A stretch of 64,000 nucleotides of DNA from Sulfuricurvum sp. (GTDB taxonomy: Bacteria; Campylobacterota; Campylobacteria; Campylobacterales; Sulfurimonadaceae). The position numbers were made by a program, and so were the translations under genes. This document shows, piece after piece, positions 1,625 to 16,543 of the stretch. Position 1 is the first letter of the stretch; the number at the start of each line of letters is the position of its first letter. The notes below the pieces were generated by a model. It saw nothing but the letters and a program-made list of their open reading frames with translations, searched no databases and was not told where the DNA came from. The stretch lies in assembly GCA_030692765.1 (NCBI GenBank), contig JAUYUB010000024.1, positions 124,001 through 188,000 on the forward strand, read 5' to 3'.

Positions 1625-2943
1625 TCTCGTTTTTCATGGGAGTTTGCCGCATATTTGAGTAAAAATGGGACACTTAGATTTAGGATAAATGCTGCTACCG
1701 AGATTAAAAGCAAATCTGAACCCGTGATGAGCTTCATGGAAAGTGCTGCAATCGCGACGAGAAAGGTGACCTCGGCACGTCCTTGCATCGCCACGCCGAT
1801 GAGTATCGAAGAGCGCCATGGAAGGCCGTTGATATAACGGGCTGTAAATGAAGCGGCAAACAATTGAATGACAAATAATACGCCAGCTAGCAAAAATGCA
1901 TGGCTAAGAATCCCCATAAAGAGTGAAAAACTTTTGATTTCCATGTGCAATCCGATACTGATAAAAAACATTGGGGCAAAGAAATAAAGGGTTAAAAAAC
2001 GAAGTTTTTCAATACTGCCATGGAAAAGCTTATCCCCTTCATCCGTGGTTGACAAATCAGCGTTAAAATGTTCTTTATTGATTATAAGTCCCATGAAATA
2101 AGCACCAAGGGCAATACTGGTTTCAAAAAATTGGGCGATAAACGATCCTATGAAAGCCAAAAAAATCATAATAATAATTGCCACATTTTCTTCTTGACGC
2201 CCTAAAAAATTGGCGGCGCCTGCATGGGTATAAATGGAAGTTTTGGTTTTTGTAAGAAGCTGAATGAGTACACTTTTGTGAGTGAGTGATGAAGTTGGAC
2301 GGAAATGAAAAAATAAATAAGCAATAAGACTCATAAGGGTCATAAAAAATAAAAAATTGGAAACGGGTTGTACTGCCAATGAGGTTATTGTTTCAAAAGA
2401 AATACCCAACGAAGCGGTTCCTTGAAGAGATACAAGAATTCCTCCCAGTACGCCCCATAAAATAAGAGAGATTACATCGTCAGTTAATGCTGCGGCCACA
2501 ATAACAGGTTGAAGTTTATGTTTGGCACTAAAAGAGAGTGTATTGAGTGTTAAAAAGGCGATACCGATAGAGGTTGGAGTAAAGGCCATTGCAAAGACGA
2601 TCGATTTTATCACATCGTGCGAGAGGGAATATTCAGTAAAGTAAATCGCAAGAAAGGGCAATATCACACCGGCTACGGCAATTTTCCATCCTGTTTTAAT
2701 CCCCGCAGTAAAGCTTTTTAGATTTTCTTCCAGACCAAGATAGAAAAATAAAAAGATGGTTCCGATAAATGCAAAGGTTTCAATGGTAGCAGATTCAGGG
2801 GAGAGAAGATGAAGATTAACGGCGGCGAGTCCACCGATTAGATAAAAAAGGACATCGGCAATTCCCGTTTTTTTCGATGCCCACAGAGAACCAATAATAA
2901 TGATAAGTAAATAAAGCAAGATAAGGGTAGTAATCATTTCCAC
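1609..2943 (-). CDS. Cation:proton antiporter, CPA2 (KefB/Na+-H+ exchanger) family
   Basis: Inner-membrane protein of 444 aa made almost entirely of hydrophobic helices. Family-typical segments are visible: LFFYLGLEENL near residue 65-75, the unwound-helix type AALTDDVISLILWG near 150 with the DD pair expected in proton-coupled antiporters, and AMQGRAEVTFLVA near 390. No C-terminal nucleotide-binding (RCK) domain is present, so this is the membrane unit only. It probably exchanges Na+ or K+ for H+; the ion cannot be read from sequence. The gene is convergent with nadB and divergent from the P-type ATPase, both membrane ion transporters. Confidence 0.85.
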   Translation of the reverse strand: MEMITTLILLYLLIIIIGSLWASKKTGIADVLFYLIGGLAAVNLHLLSPESATIETFAFIGTIFLFFYLGLEENLKSFTAGIKTGWKIAVAGVILPFLAIYFTEYSLSHDVIKSIVFAMAFTPTSIGIAFLTLNTLSFSAKHKLQPVIVAAALTDDVISLILWGVLGGILVSLQGTASLGISFETITSLAVQPVSNFLFFMTLMSLIAYLFFHFRPTSSLTHKSVLIQLLTKTKTSIYTHAGAANFLGRQEENVAIIIMIFLAFIGSFIAQFFETSIALGAYFMGLIINKEHFNADLSTTDEGDKLFHGSIEKLRFLTLYFFAPMFFISIGLHMEIKSFSLFMGILSHAFLLAGVLFVIQLFAASFTARYINGLPWRSSILIGVAMQGRAEVTFLVAIAALSMKLITGSDLLLISVAAFILNLSVPFLLKYAANSHEKRDQAVM

Positions 2944-3086
2944 AGGAGTTGAGCCTCTTTTTTTGGTTATTGTATCAAATCTTAAACAAGTTTAGAGCAT
3001 ATTTTATTGGTTTCTTGTTCCTTTTTTAGGCTGTTATTAAACTTTTTCCCAAAATAATCTTTTATTTTTGGATCATTAATCTTTGC

Positions 3087-3092
3087 TATAAT
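3087..3092 (+). promoter_or_regulatory. -10 box of the P-type ATPase gene
   Basis: TATAAT 29 bases before the ATG at 3121, in an AT-rich intergenic stretch. No convincing -35 is seen, which is usual for sigma-70 promoters of Campylobacterota. Confidence 0.55.
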
Positions 3093-3120
3093 CAAACAAT
3101 GCCAAGATAAAGAGATAAAA

Positions 3121-5664
3121 ATGGTACCTCCTCAATTTCCATGGTCCGTTAGCTCGGACGATATTCTAGAACATTTGCAGACAACGGCGCATGGGTTAGA
3201 GGTGAGCGAGGCCGACAGACGCTATCAAACCTTTGGCCCCAATACTCTCATGGCAGAGGAACGTTCGAAAACAAAGATGTTTTTTGCTCAATTTGCAAGC
3301 CCTATTGTCCTTATCTTGATTGCCGCGGCGCTTATGAGTTTTTTTATGGGGCATACGAAAGATGCGATAGCGATACTTGCGATTCTCATTATTAACGCGA
3401 TTTTGGGATTTTATCAAGAGCTCAAAGCAGAAACGTCTATCCGATCTCTTCAACGGCTTACTGAAAGCCATGTTTATGTTTTTCGTAACGGAATTGAGAC
3501 TCTTCTTCCTGCCCGTGAATTGGTGCCGGGCGACATTGTCAGTGTCAGTGAGGGCAATGTTGTTCCCGCTGATATACGCTTAGTGCAATCACATGGATTG
3601 CAGGTGGATGAGGCTGTATTGACCGGAGAGTCTCTTCCAAGAGATAAAATGAGCGATTCGATTCTTGAACAAACCGTTCCGATGTATGAGCAAATCAATT
3701 GCCTTTTTTCAGGAACGTCCGTCTTGCGAGGTAAAGCGATGGGAGTGGTTTACGCCACGGCGGATAAAACTGCTATTGCCCGTATTGCACAAGCGGCACA
3801 GAAAACTTCTCCACAATCCCCCTTAACACGATCGATGCGTAAGGTATCTCGTCAATGGCTTGGCGCCGTTATCGTCATTTTGATTGTGCTGGGAATTATT
3901 GCGCTGATACAGGGGCGCAGTGCCGATGAGATGGCGATGATTCTTCTCGCCCAGCTCGTTTCTGCGGTTCCTGAGGGACTTCCGATTGTTATTACGCTTA
4001 TTTTGGCAATCGGCGCTCATAGGTTGAGCCGCCATAAAATTTTAGTTCGCCATCTTCCTTCTGTGGAATCGCTGGGGAGTGCTACGATTATTGCGACCGA
4101 TAAAACCGGTACGATTACCGAGGGGATTTTGTCGGTGAAAGAATCGTTTTTTTTGAATGAAGCAGAACTGCGTCGCTGTGCCGCACTGTGTAATGATGCG
4201 CATAATTCACTGGGGGACAGTATTGATGTAGCCCTCTCGCGATGGCTCGGAAAAGATTTTGAAACGCTTAACAGTATGCATCAACGGGTTTTTTATCACC
4301 CTTTTGATCCAAAATCACGGATGATGGCCACGGTCAATAAAATCGGCGATCAGGAAAGACTCTATCTAAAAGGGGCCTATGAAGCGCTGATCGCATTGGC
4401 AACCAATTCCGCCGATAACCTCAAAAAGCTCAGTGATGCTCATGATAAAATGGCGTCGCTTGGATTGCGCATATTGGCGTTTGGGACCAGCGACAGCGGA
4501 TGGGAGGATCCTGAAAAGTGGGAGATTACCCTCACCGGATTGATCGCCTTTGCTGATAAGTCAAAAGAAGGGGTCAAAGAGGCGATCGCCCTGGCACAAA
4601 ATGCAGGCATTCGTTTGATTATGATTACGGGAGACAACCCCATAACGGCAGAAGTTATCGCCAGAGAAGTGGGTATAGTGCATGATCATGACCGTTTTTT
4701 GACCGGAAAAGAGATCGATGGGTTCACTAATAAGGAACTCTTGAAAGCTTTAAAAAATACCTCTGTGATTGCCCGCGCCATGCCCGAACATAAATATCGG
4801 ATTGTCCAAACGCTGCAAAAAAGCGGTGAGATCGTTGCCGTTACTGGGGATGGGGTTAACGATGTTCCTGCATTGAAAGCGGCTGATTTAGGAATTGCGA
4901 TGGGAAGCGGCAGTGAAGCGGCAAAATCTTCTGCCAAAATGGTTATTGTGGACAATAACCTGGGGGTGATTGTTAATGCCATACGTGAGGGGAGAGTAAT
5001 TGCCGACAACTTACGTAAAGTGCTTTTTTATCTTCTGGCTACGAGTTTGGATGAAATTATTATCATTACGACGGCGATATTGATGGCCCTTCCGCTCCCG
5101 CTGCATCCGACACAGATATTATGGGTTAATATCCTCACAGAAGGTGTTTGTGATAAAGCTTTTGCCGTATGTAAAGAAGAAGGAGAGGTCATGCGCCGTC
5201 CGGTTCGTCGCATGGCGAGCCAGTTTCTTGATCGCAGAACACTCCAGCGGATTGTTTGGGTTGCATTTGCAACGGCCATTGTTGTCCTGTCCCTTTATTT
5301 ATATCTGCTTTCGCATGATTATTCTTATCACATGGCACTCACGGCATCCTTTTCAACGCTGGTAGTCTCACAGTGGATCAATGCGGTTCTTGCCCAAAAA
5401 GAGTCGGAACCATTCTTGAAAAACATCCGAAATAGTGTGACGATTAATCCCTGGATATGGGCCGGCATCGCTTTTGGAATAGTGCTTCAAGCTCTGGCAC
5501 TGTATGTTCTGCCTGAATGGTTTCACAGTGTTCCTCCGACACCCGAAATATTAGGATACATTCTGATGGCAGCGTTGGGTAATTTTATGCTTGTAGAAGG
5601 GTACAAATGGTGGGAATATCGATTTTATAAAGATAAGAGAGCAAAAGGACATATCCAAAATTAA
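3121..5664 (+). CDS. P2-type cation-transporting ATPase
   Basis: Inner-membrane ion pump of 847 aa. Domains in order: cation ATPase N-terminal domain (1-70), actuator with LTGES near 180, helix M4 with PEGLP near 285, phosphorylation site DKTGT at Asp327, nucleotide domain with KGAYEAL, hinge TGDGVNDVPAL, and C-terminal helices. PEGLP places it among P2 (Ca2+-type) pumps. The M5/M6 ion-binding positions are altered relative to SERCA: the M5 Asn-x-x-Glu is read here as S-L-D-E, and M6 N-x-x-T-D is N-I-L-T-E, so the transported ion is uncertain. It stands alone after a strong -10 box. A second, differently related P2 pump lies at 28112. Confidence 0.9.
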   Translation: MVPPQFPWSVSSDDILEHLQTTAHGLEVSEADRRYQTFGPNTLMAEERSKTKMFFAQFASPIVLILIAAALMSFFMGHTKDAIAILAILIINAILGFYQELKAETSIRSLQRLTESHVYVFRNGIETLLPARELVPGDIVSVSEGNVVPADIRLVQSHGLQVDEAVLTGESLPRDKMSDSILEQTVPMYEQINCLFSGTSVLRGKAMGVVYATADKTAIARIAQAAQKTSPQSPLTRSMRKVSRQWLGAVIVILIVLGIIALIQGRSADEMAMILLAQLVSAVPEGLPIVITLILAIGAHRLSRHKILVRHLPSVESLGSATIIATDKTGTITEGILSVKESFFLNEAELRRCAALCNDAHNSLGDSIDVALSRWLGKDFETLNSMHQRVFYHPFDPKSRMMATVNKIGDQERLYLKGAYEALIALATNSADNLKKLSDAHDKMASLGLRILAFGTSDSGWEDPEKWEITLTGLIAFADKSKEGVKEAIALAQNAGIRLIMITGDNPITAEVIAREVGIVHDHDRFLTGKEIDGFTNKELLKALKNTSVIARAMPEHKYRIVQTLQKSGEIVAVTGDGVNDVPALKAADLGIAMGSGSEAAKSSAKMVIVDNNLGVIVNAIREGRVIADNLRKVLFYLLATSLDEIIIITTAILMALPLPLHPTQILWVNILTEGVCDKAFAVCKEEGEVMRRPVRRMASQFLDRRTLQRIVWVAFATAIVVLSLYLYLLSHDYSYHMALTASFSTLVVSQWINAVLAQKESEPFLKNIRNSVTINPWIWAGIAFGIVLQALALYVLPEWFHSVPPTPEILGYILMAALGNFMLVEGYKWWEYRFYKDKRAKGHIQN

Positions 5665-5740: not shown

Positions 5741-7285
5741 GTGAAAGACGTTAGCATCATCATCCTCGATTTTGGTTCTCAGTATACCCAGCTCATTGCC
5801 AGACGTTTGCGTGAAGACAAAGTGTATTGTGAAGTTTTGCCGTATCGCACGACTTCGGATGCCATCAAAGCCAAAAATCCTAAGGGAATCATTTTGAGCG
5901 GCGGTCCCTCATCGGTTTATAACGAAGATGCGTATACGGTTGATCTTGGTGTCTATGCTCTTGGTATCCCTGTACTTGGGATTTGTTACGGTATGCAGCG
6001 TATCGCCGTTGATTTTGGCGGTTCGGTGATTCGCAGTGACCATCATGAGTATGGTCAAGCAGAACTCACAATCGATTTAACCCAAAATTCTCTCCTTTTC
6101 CAAGGGTGTGAAGATGAGCGTAATGTTTGGATGAGCCATTCAGACAAAGTAGACGTATTACCGGAAGGTTTCATCTCTATTGCTCACTCGACTAACTCCC
6201 CATATGCAGCGATCGCTCATGAAGAAAAAATGGTTTATGCAATGCAGTATCACCCAGAAGTTCACCACTCTGAAGAGGGATACTTGATGTTGCGCAATTT
6301 TGCACTGAACATTTGTGGTGTTACCGAAAAATGGGATATGGGGCATTTCCTCAAAGAGCAAATCGTCAAAATCCGTGCCCAAGTGGGTGATGGAAAAGTG
6401 CTATGTGCCCTTAGTGGTGGGGTAGATTCCAGCGTGGTTGCAGCATTGCTGTATGAAGCGATTGGTGACCAGCTGATTCCAGTATTTGTGGACAATGGTG
6501 TGCTACGTAAAGGGGAGCGTGAATCAGTCGAAAATATTTTCAAAGTTCATCTCAAAGTTCCTCTTGTCGTTGCGGATGCAGCAGATTTGTTTTTGGGCAA
6601 ACTTGCAGGTGTCACCGATCCTGAGACGAAGCGCAAAATCATCGGACACACATTTATCGAAGTGTTCGAGGCAGAGGCTAAAAAACATGAGGGGATTAAA
6701 TTCCTCGCCCAAGGTACATTGTATCCTGATGTTATCGAGTCCATCTCTCCCAATGGTGCATCGGTAACGATCAAATCGCACCATAATGTTGGTGGATTGC
6801 CTGATTGGATGGATTTTGAGCTTATTGAGCCATTACGCGACTTGTTCAAAGACGAGGTTAGACGTTTGGGTACTGAACTAGGGCTTCCTGATTATCTCAT
6901 CAATCGTCATCCGTTCCCAGGACCTGGATTGGCAATACGTATTATGGGAGAAGTTAACCGTCCTGATTTGACGATGCTACGTGATGCCGATGTGATTTTA
7001 CTTGATGAACTTAAAGCCAGTGGTTATTACACCAAAACATGGCAAGCATTTGTGGTACTTCTAAACGTTAAATCTGTAGGAGTTATGGGGGATAACCGTA
7101 CGTATGATAACACGGTGTGTGTGCGTGTTGTTGAGGCCGTAGATGGTATGACTGCAACGTTTGCCCATTTGCCTCATACGTTGCTAGAACGTATCAGCCG
7201 TCGTATTATTAACGAAGTGGACGGGATTAACCGCGTTGTCTACGATATCAGCTCCAAACCACCTGCAACGATCGAGTGGGAATAA
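5741..7285 (+). CDS. guaA: GMP synthase (glutamine-hydrolysing)
   Basis: Converts XMP to GMP using ATP and glutamine in purine synthesis. The 514-aa protein has an N-terminal class I glutamine amidotransferase with the nucleophile in GICYG and the His/Glu pair in [11 protein letters not shown]. It is followed by the ATP-pyrophosphatase P-loop SGGVDSS near residue 225 and the C-terminal dimerisation domain ending KPPATIEWE, the canonical GuaA end. The start is GTG at 5741. hemD follows with its effective start 11 bases after the stop. Full length and intact. Confidence 0.97.
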
Positions 7286-7296
7286 GGGGCACGCGT

Positions 7297-7941
7297 TTGC
7301 GCCCTATCTATCTAATCTCTAAAACTTCATCAGATGAACTGATGGATGACGTTACTCATATTCCTATTCTCTCCATACACTTTTTAACTCCTGTGATTGA
7401 TTTTAATCTTTATGATGGAATCATTGTGACTTCCAAACAAGCAGCTGTTGCATTAAAATTTTACATGCCCGATTGGAATAGACTGAAGGTGGTGTGTGTC
7501 GGTGAATCAACTGCTAAAGTAATGAAGGAATTGGGCGCTCGCCATATTGAGCTAGCCCATGGATATGGGATGAGTATTTTGGAAGTATTGTCTCCTCATG
7601 AGGGAAAATGGTTGTATCTGCGCCCCAAAATGATTGCTTCCTCGTGGCCTGTTCATGCGCGTGAATCGGGAATAGAGCTTGACGAAGTGATTATCTATGA
7701 AACAGCTTGTAATGACGACATTAAAGAAATACAAATAGCGCAAAACAGTGTGCTTATTTTTACATCGCCCTCAAGCGTAGAATGCTTTAGTAAGCAAGCG
7801 GATATTCTACCAACACATGGTGTTATTGTGATCGGAAAAACAACTCAAAATGCACTTCCAAAAGGGGTAAAATCGCTTTTAAGTGCCCAAACGAGTATTA
7901 TTTCTTGCGTAGAAATGGCACGTAAAATAGGGATTTCTTGA
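7297..7941 (+). CDS. hemD: Uroporphyrinogen-III synthase HemD
   Basis: Cyclises hydroxymethylbilane to uroporphyrinogen III in haem, sirohaem and cobalamin synthesis. Family features: RPIYLISKTSSD at the start, GIIVTSKQAAVAL, VCVGESTAKVM and FTSPSSVECF in the second half. The frame is open from GTG 7276 inside guaA, but TTG 7297 has an AAGGGG 7 bases upstream and gives the usual MRPIYLIS start, so I prefer it (214 aa). HemD proteins diverge fast, so the call rests on these short motifs and on length. It probably forms an operon with guaA. Confidence 0.85.
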   Translation: MRPIYLISKTSSDELMDDVTHIPILSIHFLTPVIDFNLYDGIIVTSKQAAVALKFYMPDWNRLKVVCVGESTAKVMKELGARHIELAHGYGMSILEVLSPHEGKWLYLRPKMIASSWPVHARESGIELDEVIIYETACNDDIKEIQIAQNSVLIFTSPSSVECFSKQADILPTHGVIVIGKTTQNALPKGVKSLLSAQTSIISCVEMARKIGIS

Positions 7942-7973
7942 AACTTTATTATCCATATTAAGCTTTTTGAGGT

Positions 7974-7979
7974 TATAAT
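7974..7979 (+). promoter_or_regulatory. -10 box of the 6S-like RNA
   Basis: TATAAT directly downstream of hemD and 7-12 bases before the predicted 5' end of the structured RNA. No -35 match at proper spacing. Confidence 0.55.
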
Positions 7980-7985
7980 TATCTT

Positions 7986-8175
7986 TACCTGGGCGCAGCG
8001 AGTAATCGCATTTGAGGGTTCTACATATACACTTAGTGGTATCGGTAGTCACCTTGGTGTGTCGGTGGTCTCGTTTGAGCGCGAAAGCGCGAGAGATTGC
8101 CGCCGGAGGGGTGCTCGATCTGCTTAATTACGCTTTGAGAACCAAAGCTACTGCGAAAACGCCCGCCTGGGCTTT
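7986..8175 (+). ncRNA. ssrS: 6S RNA (SsrS) candidate
   Basis: A GC-rich, non-coding stretch that folds as one long rod. The closing stem pairs GGGCG (7991) with CGCCC (8160) and CAG (7996) with CTG (8151). GGTTCT (8017) pairs with AGAACC (8138). Then comes a large unpaired bubble (8023-8040 opposite 8121-8137). Above it ATCG (8041)/CGAT (8116), CACC (8050)/GGTG (8110) and CGGTGG (8063)/CCGCCG (8100) pair, and the rod is capped by GCGC-GAAA-GCGC (8079-8090). Closing stem, central bubble and apical stem are the architecture of 6S RNA, which mimics an open promoter and binds sigma-70 RNA polymerase. I recall that in Campylobacterota this gene sits just before purD, as here. Pairings were worked out by eye; ends are approximate. 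Confidence 0.68.
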
Positions 8176-8176
8176 T

Positions 8177-8222
8177 ACCCTTTTAAAATGTCATTTTTGG
8201 TATTTTAAAAGGGTATTATTTT
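8177..8222 (+). terminator. Intrinsic terminator after the 6S-like RNA
   Basis: Perfect 13-bp inverted repeat (ACCCTTTTAAAAT at 8177-8189, its complement at 8202-8214) with a 12-base loop, followed by ATTATTTTTATT. It lies between the RNA and purD. Confidence 0.65.
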
Positions 8223-8240
8223 TATTCAAACGGGGTGTGT

Positions 8241-9509
8241 ATGCGTGTAATGATAATCGGCAGCGGTGGGCGTGAGTTTTCAATTGGAAGAGTATTGACG
8301 CAAGACAGTGCGGTTGAAAAGGTCTATTTTGCTCCCGGTAACGGTGCTACGCCGATGCTTGGTGAAAACGTTGCATTGAGCGATTTCAACGAGCTTGCAC
8401 AATTCGCTTTTGATAACGCGATTGATCTAACGATCGTCGGTCCTGAAGGCCCTTTAAGCGAGGGGATTGTTGATGTGTTCAAAGCGAAAGGGCTTGTTAT
8501 TTTTGGTCCTACCAAAGCCGCGGCACAGCTAGAGGGTTCAAAAGTCTACATGAAAAACTTTTTAGCCAAATATGGCATTCCTACGGCACGTTATATTGAA
8601 ACAGGTCACATTGAAGAGGCCTTTAAATTTATTGACAGCTTGCTGTTACCGATTGTTGTCAAAGCTGATGGCTTATGTGCGGGCAAAGGAGTTATTATCG
8701 CTCTTACATACGATGAAGCAAAAGTAGCGGTCTCTGAAATGCTTAGCGGAAAATCATTCGGTGATGCGGGCAAGCGTGTGGTTGTCGAAGAGTTTTTGGA
8801 CGGTTATGAGCTTTCGATGTTTGCATTGTGCGATGGAAAAGACTTTATTTTACTGCCTGCAGCACAAGACCACAAGCGTCTTTTAGATGGTGATGAGGGC
8901 CCAAATACAGGCGGTATGGGTGCGTATGCTCCAACTCCTCTTGTGGATGATTTGATTTATGAAAAAGTCAAAGAGCGTGTGGTTCGCCCAACCCTCAAAG
9001 GGATGCAAGAAGAAGGAGCACCATTCGAGGGTGTTCTCTTTATTGGAATTATGGTGGTAAACGGTGAGCCGATTACCCTGGAATTCAACGTCCGTTTTGG
9101 AGACCCTGAGTGTGAGATTTTGATGCCGTTGCTTAAAACACCGGCAAGCGAACTGTTTTACAAAGCCGCAACCAAACAACTCGACACCCTTAATATCGAA
9201 TTTCATGATAAATACGCTGTGGGCGTCGTCATGGCGAGTAAAAACTATCCGTATGACAACTCTGTGCCTGCTGAGATTGTGGTGGATACGATCCATCATG
9301 ATGAGATTTTGCAAAACACTCACATAGCTTATGCCGGCGTGAGTACAGAAGATGGTAAGCTTTATGCAAACGGAGGACGTGTTCTTGTATGTGTCGGAGT
9401 GGGTGACAGTATCAAGAGCGCACGTGATCGTGCCTATATGCTCTGCGGTCAAGTTCATTTTGCAGGTAAAAAACTGCGTACCGATATAGCCTATCAAGCG
9501 CTTCGCTAA
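8241..9509 (+). CDS. purD: Phosphoribosylamine-glycine ligase PurD
   Basis: ATP-grasp enzyme that makes glycinamide ribonucleotide, the second step of purine synthesis. The start ATG 8241 gives MRVMIIGSGGREFSIG, the canonical N-terminus, rather than the open frame from 8235. Other family motifs: NDLTIVGPEGPLSEGIVD-like segment near residue 65, VVKADGLCAGKGV in the ATP-grasp, GPNTGGMGAY, and EFNVRFGDPECE with metal-binding residues. 422 aa, full length. The stop codon overlaps the start of the RDD protein by one base (TAATG), so the two are translationally coupled. Confidence 0.96.
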   Translation: MRVMIIGSGGREFSIGRVLTQDSAVEKVYFAPGNGATPMLGENVALSDFNELAQFAFDNAIDLTIVGPEGPLSEGIVDVFKAKGLVIFGPTKAAAQLEGSKVYMKNFLAKYGIPTARYIETGHIEEAFKFIDSLLLPIVVKADGLCAGKGVIIALTYDEAKVAVSEMLSGKSFGDAGKRVVVEEFLDGYELSMFALCDGKDFILLPAAQDHKRLLDGDEGPNTGGMGAYAPTPLVDDLIYEKVKERVVRPTLKGMQEEGAPFEGVLFIGIMVVNGEPITLEFNVRFGDPECEILMPLLKTPASELFYKAATKQLDTLNIEFHDKYAVGVVMASKNYPYDNSVPAEIVVDTIHHDEILQNTHIAYAGVSTEDGKLYANGGRVLVCVGVGDSIKSARDRAYMLCGQVHFAGKKLRTDIAYQALR

Positions 9510-9958: not shown

Positions 9959-12104
9959 ATCAATCTTTATCAGCATTGTTGCGTGCGGTGTTTTGTTAGC
10001 CGAGGAGCGTGTTGAGCTTTTTGGTCTTAATGCGGATATCAATGGGTCGGTAGTACATGCTTACGGAAATCCTGTCATTATCTATCAGGATAAAATCTTA
10101 ACTGCACAGCACCTCTCCTACGACCGAAATACGAGCATAATTGAAGCCGAGGGGAATGTAACGGTTTTTCAAGATGGAAAAACTCAGGCCATCAGTGAAT
10201 ACACGACAATAAATATGGACACGAATACACGGCAATCGCGTCCTTTGTATATGATTGATCATCAAAGCGGATTGTGGATGAATACACAACAATCTGATGC
10301 CTGCGAAAGTCAGATTGATTTGGCAAGTGGAATGGTGTCAGGATGTAATTCGACCGATCCTTTGTGGAAAATCCGCTTTAGCAGTGCCGATTACAATACC
10401 GATAAAATGTGGATGAATCTGTATAACGCCCGTTTGTACGTTGAAAATGTTCCCCTCTTTTATCTCCCTTATTTTGGGTACCCTACCGATAAAACGCGTC
10501 GAAGCGGGTTGCTTATTCCTGAGTTTGGACTCTCTAGCGATCAGGGGTTTTTCTATCAGCAGCCTATTTACATCGCTGTGCATAATTGGTGGGATGCAGA
10601 GCTTCGCCCTCAAATACGCACCGAACGCGGATCGGGTATTTACGGAGATTTTCGTTTTGTGGATACGCCATCGTCTCAAGGCTCCGTTCGATTCGGATAT
10701 TTTAAAGAACAAGCGGCTTATGCTCTTGAAAATGATCTAGCTCACATAAAGCATTATGGATACGATATTAAGTATCAGCACAGCGCATTTTTGAGGGAGT
10801 GGTTTGATTTAGAACTCGATGGGGAATCGGGACTGTATGTCAATGGCAGGTGGATGAATGATGTGGATTATCTCAATTTACAGCAAATTGATGAAACGCA
10901 AAATACGACCACTAATCAAATTCTTTCGCGTATCAACGCTTATTATAGCAATGAAGATGATTATTTGGGGATGTATCTCAAGCATTATCAATATCTTGAC
11001 GGCTCTATCGATAACGGCAAAACGATTCAGATATTGCCGACTTTACAATATCACCATTATTTGGAAAACTTTTTTGAAGATCATTTATTGATCAATGCGG
11101 ATACGGCCATTACTAATTACTATCGTCCTGATGGCATGCGCGCGGTTGAGGGAATGGTGAACGTACCGTTGATGCTTCAATCGGGATTGTTTGACAATAC
11201 AGTAGATACGAGTTATGTGGCAAATCTCAGCGGTCGTTTGATCGGTTTTTACGGAAATCCTCAGACAAACAACACCAATGACACCATTAATGCCTACGAA
11301 TCAGGGCAATACGGGCAAGTTGATCATACCTTCAAGCTTTCAAGTACTTTGGTAAAACCGTATGGCGAAACGATACACGTGATGGCCCCTGAAATCGCCT
11401 ATACGTTTGCAGGAAGCCGTTATTACAAAGGGTATTACGATCGTTACCATAACGAAGAATGTATACCTGGAACAAAAGATAAGCCATGGTGTGATTTCAA
11501 CACACTTCAATCACCAAGCGATACCCTTTCGCTGGGAATCAATAACTATCTTTTTGAAAATGGAAAGCAAACGCTGGTCGATCGTCTTTCCCAAAGTTTT
11601 CGTTACGATGATACAGGGAATTATTACGGTGAATTGACGAATGAACTGGAATGGCAGATTATTCAAGCTGTTTCGTATTACAATGTAACTTCTTTTAATC
11701 ATGACCGAAATCGAATTACCAAAGAGCGCAATACCGTACGGTATGATGATAAAATTGTGACGGCATCTCTTAATCATTATTATTCAGATGAATTGCGCAA
11801 CAGTGTAAATGTTTATTCCAGCTATTGGTCCGCCGATGCATCGTATCAATACAATCGTCATTATCGTTTTTTTGGTCTTGTCGCGTATGATTACCGAGAA
11901 GATCTTTTAAAACGAAGCGAGATAGGCTTTTTGTATTCACAAAGATGTATGGATATAGGAGTACGTTTTGTACAAAACAATCGACCGATATTAACCAATG
12001 TCAGCGGGAACGACTCTGTTAATGACTCTTATGTTTTTCTAACATTGATTCTAAAACCGATTGGCGGTTCAGAATTCAATTATAAAATCACCAATAATCA
12101 ATAG
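9951..12104 (+). CDS. lptD: LPS-assembly protein LptD
   Basis: Outer-membrane beta-barrel that places lipopolysaccharide into the outer leaflet, working with LptE. 717 aa: signal peptide 1-16, N-terminal OstA/LptA-like jellyroll (about 20-150, with ADGxxVHAYGNPVIIYQ-like and IEAEGNVTVFQDG segments), then the LptD barrel with the family motif YFGYPTDKTRRSGLLIPEFG near 175 and aromatic beta strands to the end. Few cysteines are available (C110, C122 region and C-terminal C659 region), so a disulphide pattern like that of E. coli is possible but not certain. Its promoter is probably that of the purD operon. The MCE protein follows after 9 bases. Confidence 0.92.
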   Translation: MRKSIFISIVACGVLLAEERVELFGLNADINGSVVHAYGNPVIIYQDKILTAQHLSYDRNTSIIEAEGNVTVFQDGKTQAISEYTTINMDTNTRQSRPLYMIDHQSGLWMNTQQSDACESQIDLASGMVSGCNSTDPLWKIRFSSADYNTDKMWMNLYNARLYVENVPLFYLPYFGYPTDKTRRSGLLIPEFGLSSDQGFFYQQPIYIAVHNWWDAELRPQIRTERGSGIYGDFRFVDTPSSQGSVRFGYFKEQAAYALENDLAHIKHYGYDIKYQHSAFLREWFDLELDGESGLYVNGRWMNDVDYLNLQQIDETQNTTTNQILSRINAYYSNEDDYLGMYLKHYQYLDGSIDNGKTIQILPTLQYHHYLENFFEDHLLINADTAITNYYRPDGMRAVEGMVNVPLMLQSGLFDNTVDTSYVANLSGRLIGFYGNPQTNNTNDTINAYESGQYGQVDHTFKLSSTLVKPYGETIHVMAPEIAYTFAGSRYYKGYYDRYHNEECIPGTKDKPWCDFNTLQSPSDTLSLGINNYLFENGKQTLVDRLSQSFRYDDTGNYYGELTNELEWQIIQAVSYYNVTSFNHDRNRITKERNTVRYDDKIVTASLNHYYSDELRNSVNVYSSYWSADASYQYNRHYRFFGLVAYDYREDLLKRSEIGFLYSQRCMDIGVRFVQNNRPILTNVSGNDSVNDSYVFLTLILKPIGGSEFNYKITNNQ

Positions 12105-16177: not shown

Positions 16178-16194
16178 GTTTTATCAAACCTCAC

Positions 16195-16225
16195 GATCAG
16201 CTTCGGCTGATCAACTTCTTTTTTT
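16195..16225 (+). terminator. Terminator after atpE
   Basis: Perfect 7-bp stem GATCAGC-TTCG-GCTGATC (16195-16212) with a stable UUCG loop, then AACTTCTTTTTTTA. It precedes the tRNA-Leu gene by 15 bases. Confidence 0.9.
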
Positions 16226-16227
16226 AT

Positions 16228-16312
16228 GCGGTCGTGGTGGAACGGTAGACACGCTACCTTGAGGTGGTAGTGCCTTACGGGTGTGGGGGTTCAAATCCCC
16301 CCGACCGCACCA
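16228..16312 (+). tRNA. tRNA-Leu (anticodon GAG)
   Basis: 85 nt including an encoded CCA. Acceptor GCGGTCG pairs with CGACCGC, followed by discriminator A. The anticodon stem CTACC/GGTAG encloses TTGAGGT with GAG at 16261-16263. A long variable arm (class II tRNA) and T-arm GGGGGTTCAAATCCCCC are present. Confidence 0.96.
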
Positions 16313-16543
16313 TCTTTTTCTTTAATAAACAATCTTCTAACTTACTAATAAAACTTCCTGAACTTCTAAAAATAATGCTTATAACTTTATGTGTATCTTG
16401 GATTCTCCGATACTATAAGATATACTTATTCTTTATTTATATCAGTGTATATAAAATATAGATATTGACAAAGTATATTCAGGGAATATTTTATAGGCTG
16501 TATGTAGAATTGAAAATAGTAAAAATCCTCAAAGGAAAAGCAA
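16313..16543. other. Intergenic region after tRNA-Leu with a possible promoter
   Basis: AT-rich spacer with no credible gene. TTGACA at 16465 is followed 16 bases later by TATTTT (16487), a plausible sigma-70 promoter for the lipoprotein gene at 16544. I see no repeat of the tRNA-Leu 3' end that would mark an integrated element. Confidence 0.4.

Follow-up and report, generated by a model that had tools for sequence, protein, structure and literature searches.

What is the element that lies in front of purD in this Sulfuricurvum genome? In the window (the whole stretch of 64,000 nucleotides which was analysed), the + strand carries in this order guaA (5741-7285, named from its sequence), hemD, a gap and purD. 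The upstream neighbour of the gap, hemD (7276..7941), encodes uroporphyrinogen-III synthase (Pfam HEM4), and purD (8241..9509, its start being taken as the ATG at 8241) encodes phosphoribosylamine-glycine ligase (Pfam GARS_A, GARS_N and GARS_C). The initial annotation had proposed that the gap holds a candidate 6S RNA, while the only RNA match above cut-off which Rfam gives in the region is to RF01069, the "purD RNA motif", over its gathering score. We put at roughly 95% the probability that the region 8045-8172, completed by a 5' part, is the 6S RNA gene of this Sulfuricurvum-like Campylobacterota bacterium, as judged from sequence comparisons.

The element in the window

All the coordinates given for the element are on the + strand. 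We place the putative 6S RNA at 7987..8172 (about 186 nt), both ends being deduced from the spacing of the -10 box and from the closing stem. It lies inside the interval 7974-8222 which had been marked for it and is narrower, the rest of the interval being made of the -10 box and of a terminator-like hairpin. The gap had also been called the only long gene-free one of the first 38 kb. This is nearly right: a crude ORF caller gives it 293 nt (7942-8234), and a longer one of 366 nt exists at 16178-16543, which contains a tRNA-Leu(gag) at 16228-16312. An 87-aa ORF at 8012-8275 was dismissed as a chance ORF running over a conserved structured RNA and over the start of purD. Searched against phages, 217 nt of the region gave no match.

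The complementary blocks which the initial annotation had seen nested around a tip are present: we count 48 nested pairs over 7988-8171, grouped in 7 helices. The closing stem pairs 7988..8000 with 8160..8171, and is followed inwards, on the side of the bubble, by a helix between GGUUCU (8017..8022) and AGAACC (8138-8143). Then comes the expected two-sided bubble of 13 by 14 nt, whose strands 8023..8035 and 8124..8137 are unpaired in this rod, between both flanking helices. The GCGC-GAAA-GCGC tip was found at 8079..8090. Within the 3' strand of the bubble, an alternative local hairpin, GCUUU-GAGAACC-AAAGC, can be drawn at 8132..8148.

The energy of folding is of little help here. The z score is -3.8 for the 249-nt interval, terminator hairpin included (none of 200 shuffles was as stable), and only -1.6 for the 186-nt RNA. 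Because of this last value we consider that folding energy alone is weak evidence for the rod and we dropped it as proof. The best fold in which the rod is enforced has -68.4 kcal/mol, against -68.9 for the free minimum, which retains the closing stem and pairs the interior differently. From energies, one could maintain that the complementarity arose by chance in an intergenic region, as 32 of the 500 sequences obtained by dinucleotide shuffling of the 186-nt RNA are equally stable.

Covariation of the rod

We scanned 60 genomes with RF01069, of which 56 match, that of the window included, and we aligned the 56 regions, each with the 66 nt upstream of its match. Thirty-six rows come from the genus of the window and 20 from 18 other families; 55 of the sequences are distinct. 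RNAalifold, which was not given the rod, recovers it from this alignment with 37 pairs, closing stem included, of which 27 have at least one double change (both partners replaced). When the 48-pair rod is imposed on the 56 loci, 91.1% of the cells are paired, against a mean of 78.0% in shuffled alignments and 35.5-46.3% in versions of the rod slid along the alignment; double changes are seen in 36 of the 48 pairs, the shuffled mean being 25.9. The closing stem is paired in 99.5% of the cells (double changes in 6 of 11 pairs), the helix next to the bubble in 93.0% (4 of 6 pairs) and the apical hairpin in 96.6% (all 4 pairs). The weakest part of the rod is the upper arm beside the bubble, with 79.6% of the cells paired in a place where the alignment is poor; the short helices between the closing stem and the bubble are weak too (85.5% and 82.0%).

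It is thus covariation over the 56 loci, and not energy, which raises the rod above chance. Complementarity by chance is contradicted by the double changes in three quarters of the pairs (36/48) over 55 distinct sequences, and again by RF01069 or our own model finding a match in 248 of 249 genomes of the phylum (see below); the probability which we leave to it is practically negligible. What was found is a covarying rod in the range of about 180-200 nt with a closing stem, a central bubble and an apical arm, as in a 6S RNA.

We also compared strands without any alignment, taking one representative for each of 19 families, six blocks of the rod and 5000 permutations. In each of the six blocks, true partners show stronger binding than swapped ones, the observed mean being reached in 0, 1, 3, 0, 0 and 0 of the 5000 permutations. 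Family by family, though, two of the blocks have the cognate strand as the top partner in just 1 and 2 of the 19 cases. As for the controls, two of three unrelated blocks show nothing and the third reaches 23/5000.

In the same 19 representatives, a local hairpin at least as stable as -2 kcal/mol is predicted every time in the 3' strand of the bubble. It occupies 5 or 6 of the six nucleotides pairing at the base of the bubble in 13 of the 19, and fewer in the others; in the window, its GAGAACC loop is the very strand that pairs with GGUUCU. The local hairpin and the helix at the base of the bubble thus draw on shared nucleotides and probably compete. We note besides that the 6S RNA is shorter in two of the loci (L055 and L056, families f16 and f13), where the aligned rows have 176 nt and the apical arm is reduced.

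A truncated model and an insensitive one

The match to RF01069 (8045..8172; 76.8 bits against a cut-off of 41; E 7.3e-13 in the window) is the only one in its own genome and covers the inner and 3' part of the putative 6S RNA. The Rfam model of 6S RNA, RF00013, has no match in the window or in the genome, even at E 10. This Infernal search was the check proposed beforehand for the 6S candidate, and on this point the candidate failed. A confident match to another RNA family, on the other hand, was to count against it, and RF01069 is formally such a match. The 6S reading is nevertheless supported, for RF01069 itself represents a part of the 6S RNA of Campylobacterota and its match therefore does not speak against one.

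This can be seen by laying the model on the rod. RF01069 starts inside the rod, leaving the 5' strand of the closing stem outside the match, and its last 24 positions, unpaired in the drawing of the model (the 3' strand of the closing stem among them), pair in our rod with 7988-8010, upstream of the match. Judged from these sequences, RF01069 is a truncated Campylobacterota 6S RNA, deprived of its 5' strand and so of its closing stem and of its bubble. Unlike RF01069, which is typed as a cis-regulator, the full RNA would include the 5' strand of the rod, the closing stem and the bubble. In the literature searched, RF01069 is named by number in one paper, on a structure-probing method.

Could the silence of RF00013 be held against the 6S reading? 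We ran it on 249 genomes of the phylum, at least 95% complete and including that of the window, where it matched weakly in four and passed the cut-off in none. The four weak matches span model positions 1-187 and all fall on the site of RF01069 (two of them aligned). Among 14 control genomes, four pass the cut-off, those of E. coli and B. subtilis being among them. Given 0/249 in the phylum against 4/14 in the controls, RF00013 appears to be insensitive in Campylobacterota.

We built instead R1, a covariance model which covers the whole rod. It finds a single match in the genome of the window at E up to 10, with 194.8 bits, the sequence being one of the input rows of R1.

Is the element a purD leader?

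The type which Rfam gives to RF01069 (Cis-reg, in the copy used) implies another reading, namely that the element is a purely cis-acting leader of purD, sensing purines. The neighbourhood seems at first to agree with this. As the initial annotation had remarked, purD follows the element in the window, and it does so directly and on the same strand in 50 of the 56 loci, with a median gap of 69 nt, and in 8 of the 12 loci found with R1 (see below). A leader should scan over the cut-off of RF01069, which is the case, but it should also stand directly upstream of purD wherever it is present, which is not the case. Four of the 56 loci have their purD in another place. In genome G051, the two are on a single contig, 194 kb apart; in G025 and G007, purD comes 2.7 kb and 1.2 kb further on; in G038 it is on another contig, and the RNA is followed by an FBPase gene. 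The two remaining unlinked loci are one cut by the end of its contig (G019) and one from a 57%-complete genome in which purD was not found (G032).

In family f16, we examined five of the seven genomes in the phylum sample (G051, G061, G080, G092 and G267, the other two being G091 and G135), and in all five there is no purD beside the RNA. Four of these (G061, G080, G092 and G267) are the four R1 loci, out of 12, which have no purD within 1.5 kb of the RNA, and in G061 the genes after the RNA are even convergent. Frames resembling guaA and hemD, recognized by eye, precede the RNA in G051, G061 and G080, the three for which frames were listed. As purD does not adjoin it in the five examined genomes of this family, we concluded that the element is not simply a purD leader. 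A purely cis-acting leader is also at odds with the structured unit seen here, with a promoter-like box ahead of it and a stem between its two ends which closes it, and with the discrete 185-nt RNA reported for C. jejuni (PMC3847290). We regard the leader reading as very unlikely.

Two defence-like genes were met just after the 6S RNA. In G051 (locus L055), an AbiP2/DRT-type reverse transcriptase lies at 1419-2600 (PADLOC E 3.1e-167); in G032 (locus L027), a type IIG restriction-methylation gene lies at 1712-3130 (PADLOC E 1.5e-117). These two genes stand in the place otherwise taken by purD, and insertions may be tolerated at this spot behind the 6S RNA.

Promoter-like and terminator-like elements and possible read-through

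A TATAAT had been noticed before the 5' end and a terminator after the 3' end; the TATAAT and a terminator-like hairpin are indeed there. The -10 box, at 7974..7979, stands 8 nt before the closing stem; an exact TATAAT is found within 20 nt before the stem in 49 of the 56 loci, against 1 of 56 in the stretch located 50 nt further upstream. Between the 6S RNA and purD, a terminator-like hairpin at 8176..8215 has 18 pairs and then TTATTTTTAT, a U-rich tail (shuffles give 0.6 matches on average in the hairpin scan). Among the 38 linked gaps of at least 45 nt between the RNA and purD, 29 have a folding z below -2 with respect to mononucleotide shuffles. Like the rod, its conservation and covariation and the match to RF01069, these promoter-like and terminator-like elements are results of computation.

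Where does purD take its own promoter from? The gap between the RNA and purD is of 45 nt or less in 12 of the 50 linked loci, a distance with little space for a promoter of its own; in the window, the start of purD comes just 25 nt after the hairpin. Of the 38 longer gaps, no more than 5 contain an exact TATAAT. From this spacing, that is from the short gaps and from the scarcity of TATAAT between the RNA and purD, we tentatively suggest that the promoter of the 6S RNA might also supply purD by read-through, which would put purine synthesis and a brake on the polymerase on one transcript; we hold this for possible, and for rather doubtful than probable. Alternatively, purD may have a promoter within the 6S gene, or one unlike TATAAT.

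Comparison with known 6S RNAs

In C. jejuni, the RNA upstream of purD is reported to be a 185-nt 6S RNA which starts upstream of the purD element described earlier (PMC3847290, 2013); in a shorter form, it had been suggested to be a purine riboswitch (Weinberg et al. 2007, cited via PMC3847290). This RNA was seen on Northern blots, has a 13-nt antisense product RNA, and is the most highly transcribed non-coding RNA after rRNA and tRNA (PMC3847290). The 6S RNA of H. pylori also lies upstream of purD (PMC3847290, where the H. pylori transcriptome of Sharma et al. 2010 is cited). In C. jejuni the RNA is reported not to be significantly regulated by the growth phase, so that its role may differ from that in E. 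coli (PMC3847290); by BLAST, its sequence is described as not conserved outside Campylobacter (PMC3656092).

The RNA of the window resembles these by its place upstream of purD and, with about 186 nt against 185 nt in C. jejuni, by its length, its closing stem and its bubble. It differs from them by its genus, and its transcript and product RNA are predicted ones. Its homology to known 6S RNA goes through the RF01069 family and through the place in front of purD rather than through an alignment with the C. jejuni and H. pylori sequences themselves. The match to RF01069, the place upstream of purD, which is that of the 6S RNA in C. jejuni and H. pylori, and the covarying full rod make 6S RNA the best-supported identity for the element. 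The proposal of a 6S RNA is thus supported, being backed by the 56-locus comparison and by the recognition of RF01069 as a 6S fragment (PMC3847290, for C. jejuni). The gene as such would be an ordinary one; that the RNA in front of purD is 6S RNA had been published before for C. jejuni and H. pylori (PMC3847290).

The 6S RNA of E. coli (SsrS, RF00013) is likewise a rod of similar length with a central bubble and has, by eye, a self-complementary stretch in the 3' strand of the bubble. Its gene lies upstream of fau, a folate gene, much as the 6S gene of the window lies upstream of a purine gene. The sequences are too distant for RF00013 to match in the window. In the other direction, R1 run on the ssrS region of E. 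coli ranks the true place first with only 6.1 bits, against 6.0 for the next one, and is no useful bridge between the two models.

Proposed function

By homology, and from what 6S RNA does in general, we infer a transcript, its binding to polymerase, a product RNA and a physiological role as follows. A promoter of the sigma-70 type belonging to the element would give the 186-nt RNA, which would fold into a long rod whose central bubble resembles melted promoter DNA. The RNA would then occupy the RNA polymerase carrying the main sigma factor, and would be released once the enzyme has used the bubble as template for a short product RNA.

A predicted structure does not by itself reveal the binding partner of an RNA, and the element might accordingly be an RNA of the kind of Ms1, binding the core enzyme rather than the holoenzyme with the main sigma factor; Ms1, which likewise contains a central bubble, was initially a predicted 6S RNA candidate (PMC9130861). 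According to the same paper, though, Ms1 is an RNA of about 300 nt from Actinobacteria with extra hairpins at both ends, unlike the RNA of the window, which has about 186 nt and a rod reaching both ends. We hold an RNA of this kind to be extremely unlikely here, and the 6S reading is retained.

Distribution across the phylum

RF01069 was found in 236 of the 249 phylum genomes, over the cut-off in 228. We applied R1 to the 13 genomes which lack an RF01069 match and to three others; its E-values are rough, by the tool's own statement. In 12 of the 13 genomes missed by RF01069 it finds the RNA at E 1.4e-5 or better, while its second-best matches, four in number, have E 0.16 or worse. At laxer settings, RF01069 itself gives weak matches at six of these 12 places.

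In the set of 60 genomes, four (G024, G037, G043 and G050) have no match to RF01069, and R1 recovers only G050. In G024, purD is matched from residue 18 onwards, and the match stops at base 11837 of its contig, which is also the length of the contig of locus L082; the RNA may therefore be cut off there. In the phylum sample, the sole genome with neither an RF01069 nor an R1 match is G220, which is rated 99% complete. The two models combined thus find the element in 248 of the 249 genomes.

With RF01069 over its cut-off in 228 of the 249 genomes and RF00013 in none, an annotation of Campylobacterota at the Rfam cut-offs will mostly report a "purD cis-regulatory motif" and miss the 6S RNA. If RF01069 were enlarged to cover the whole rod and its type changed, nearly all of the phylum would receive a 6S annotation.
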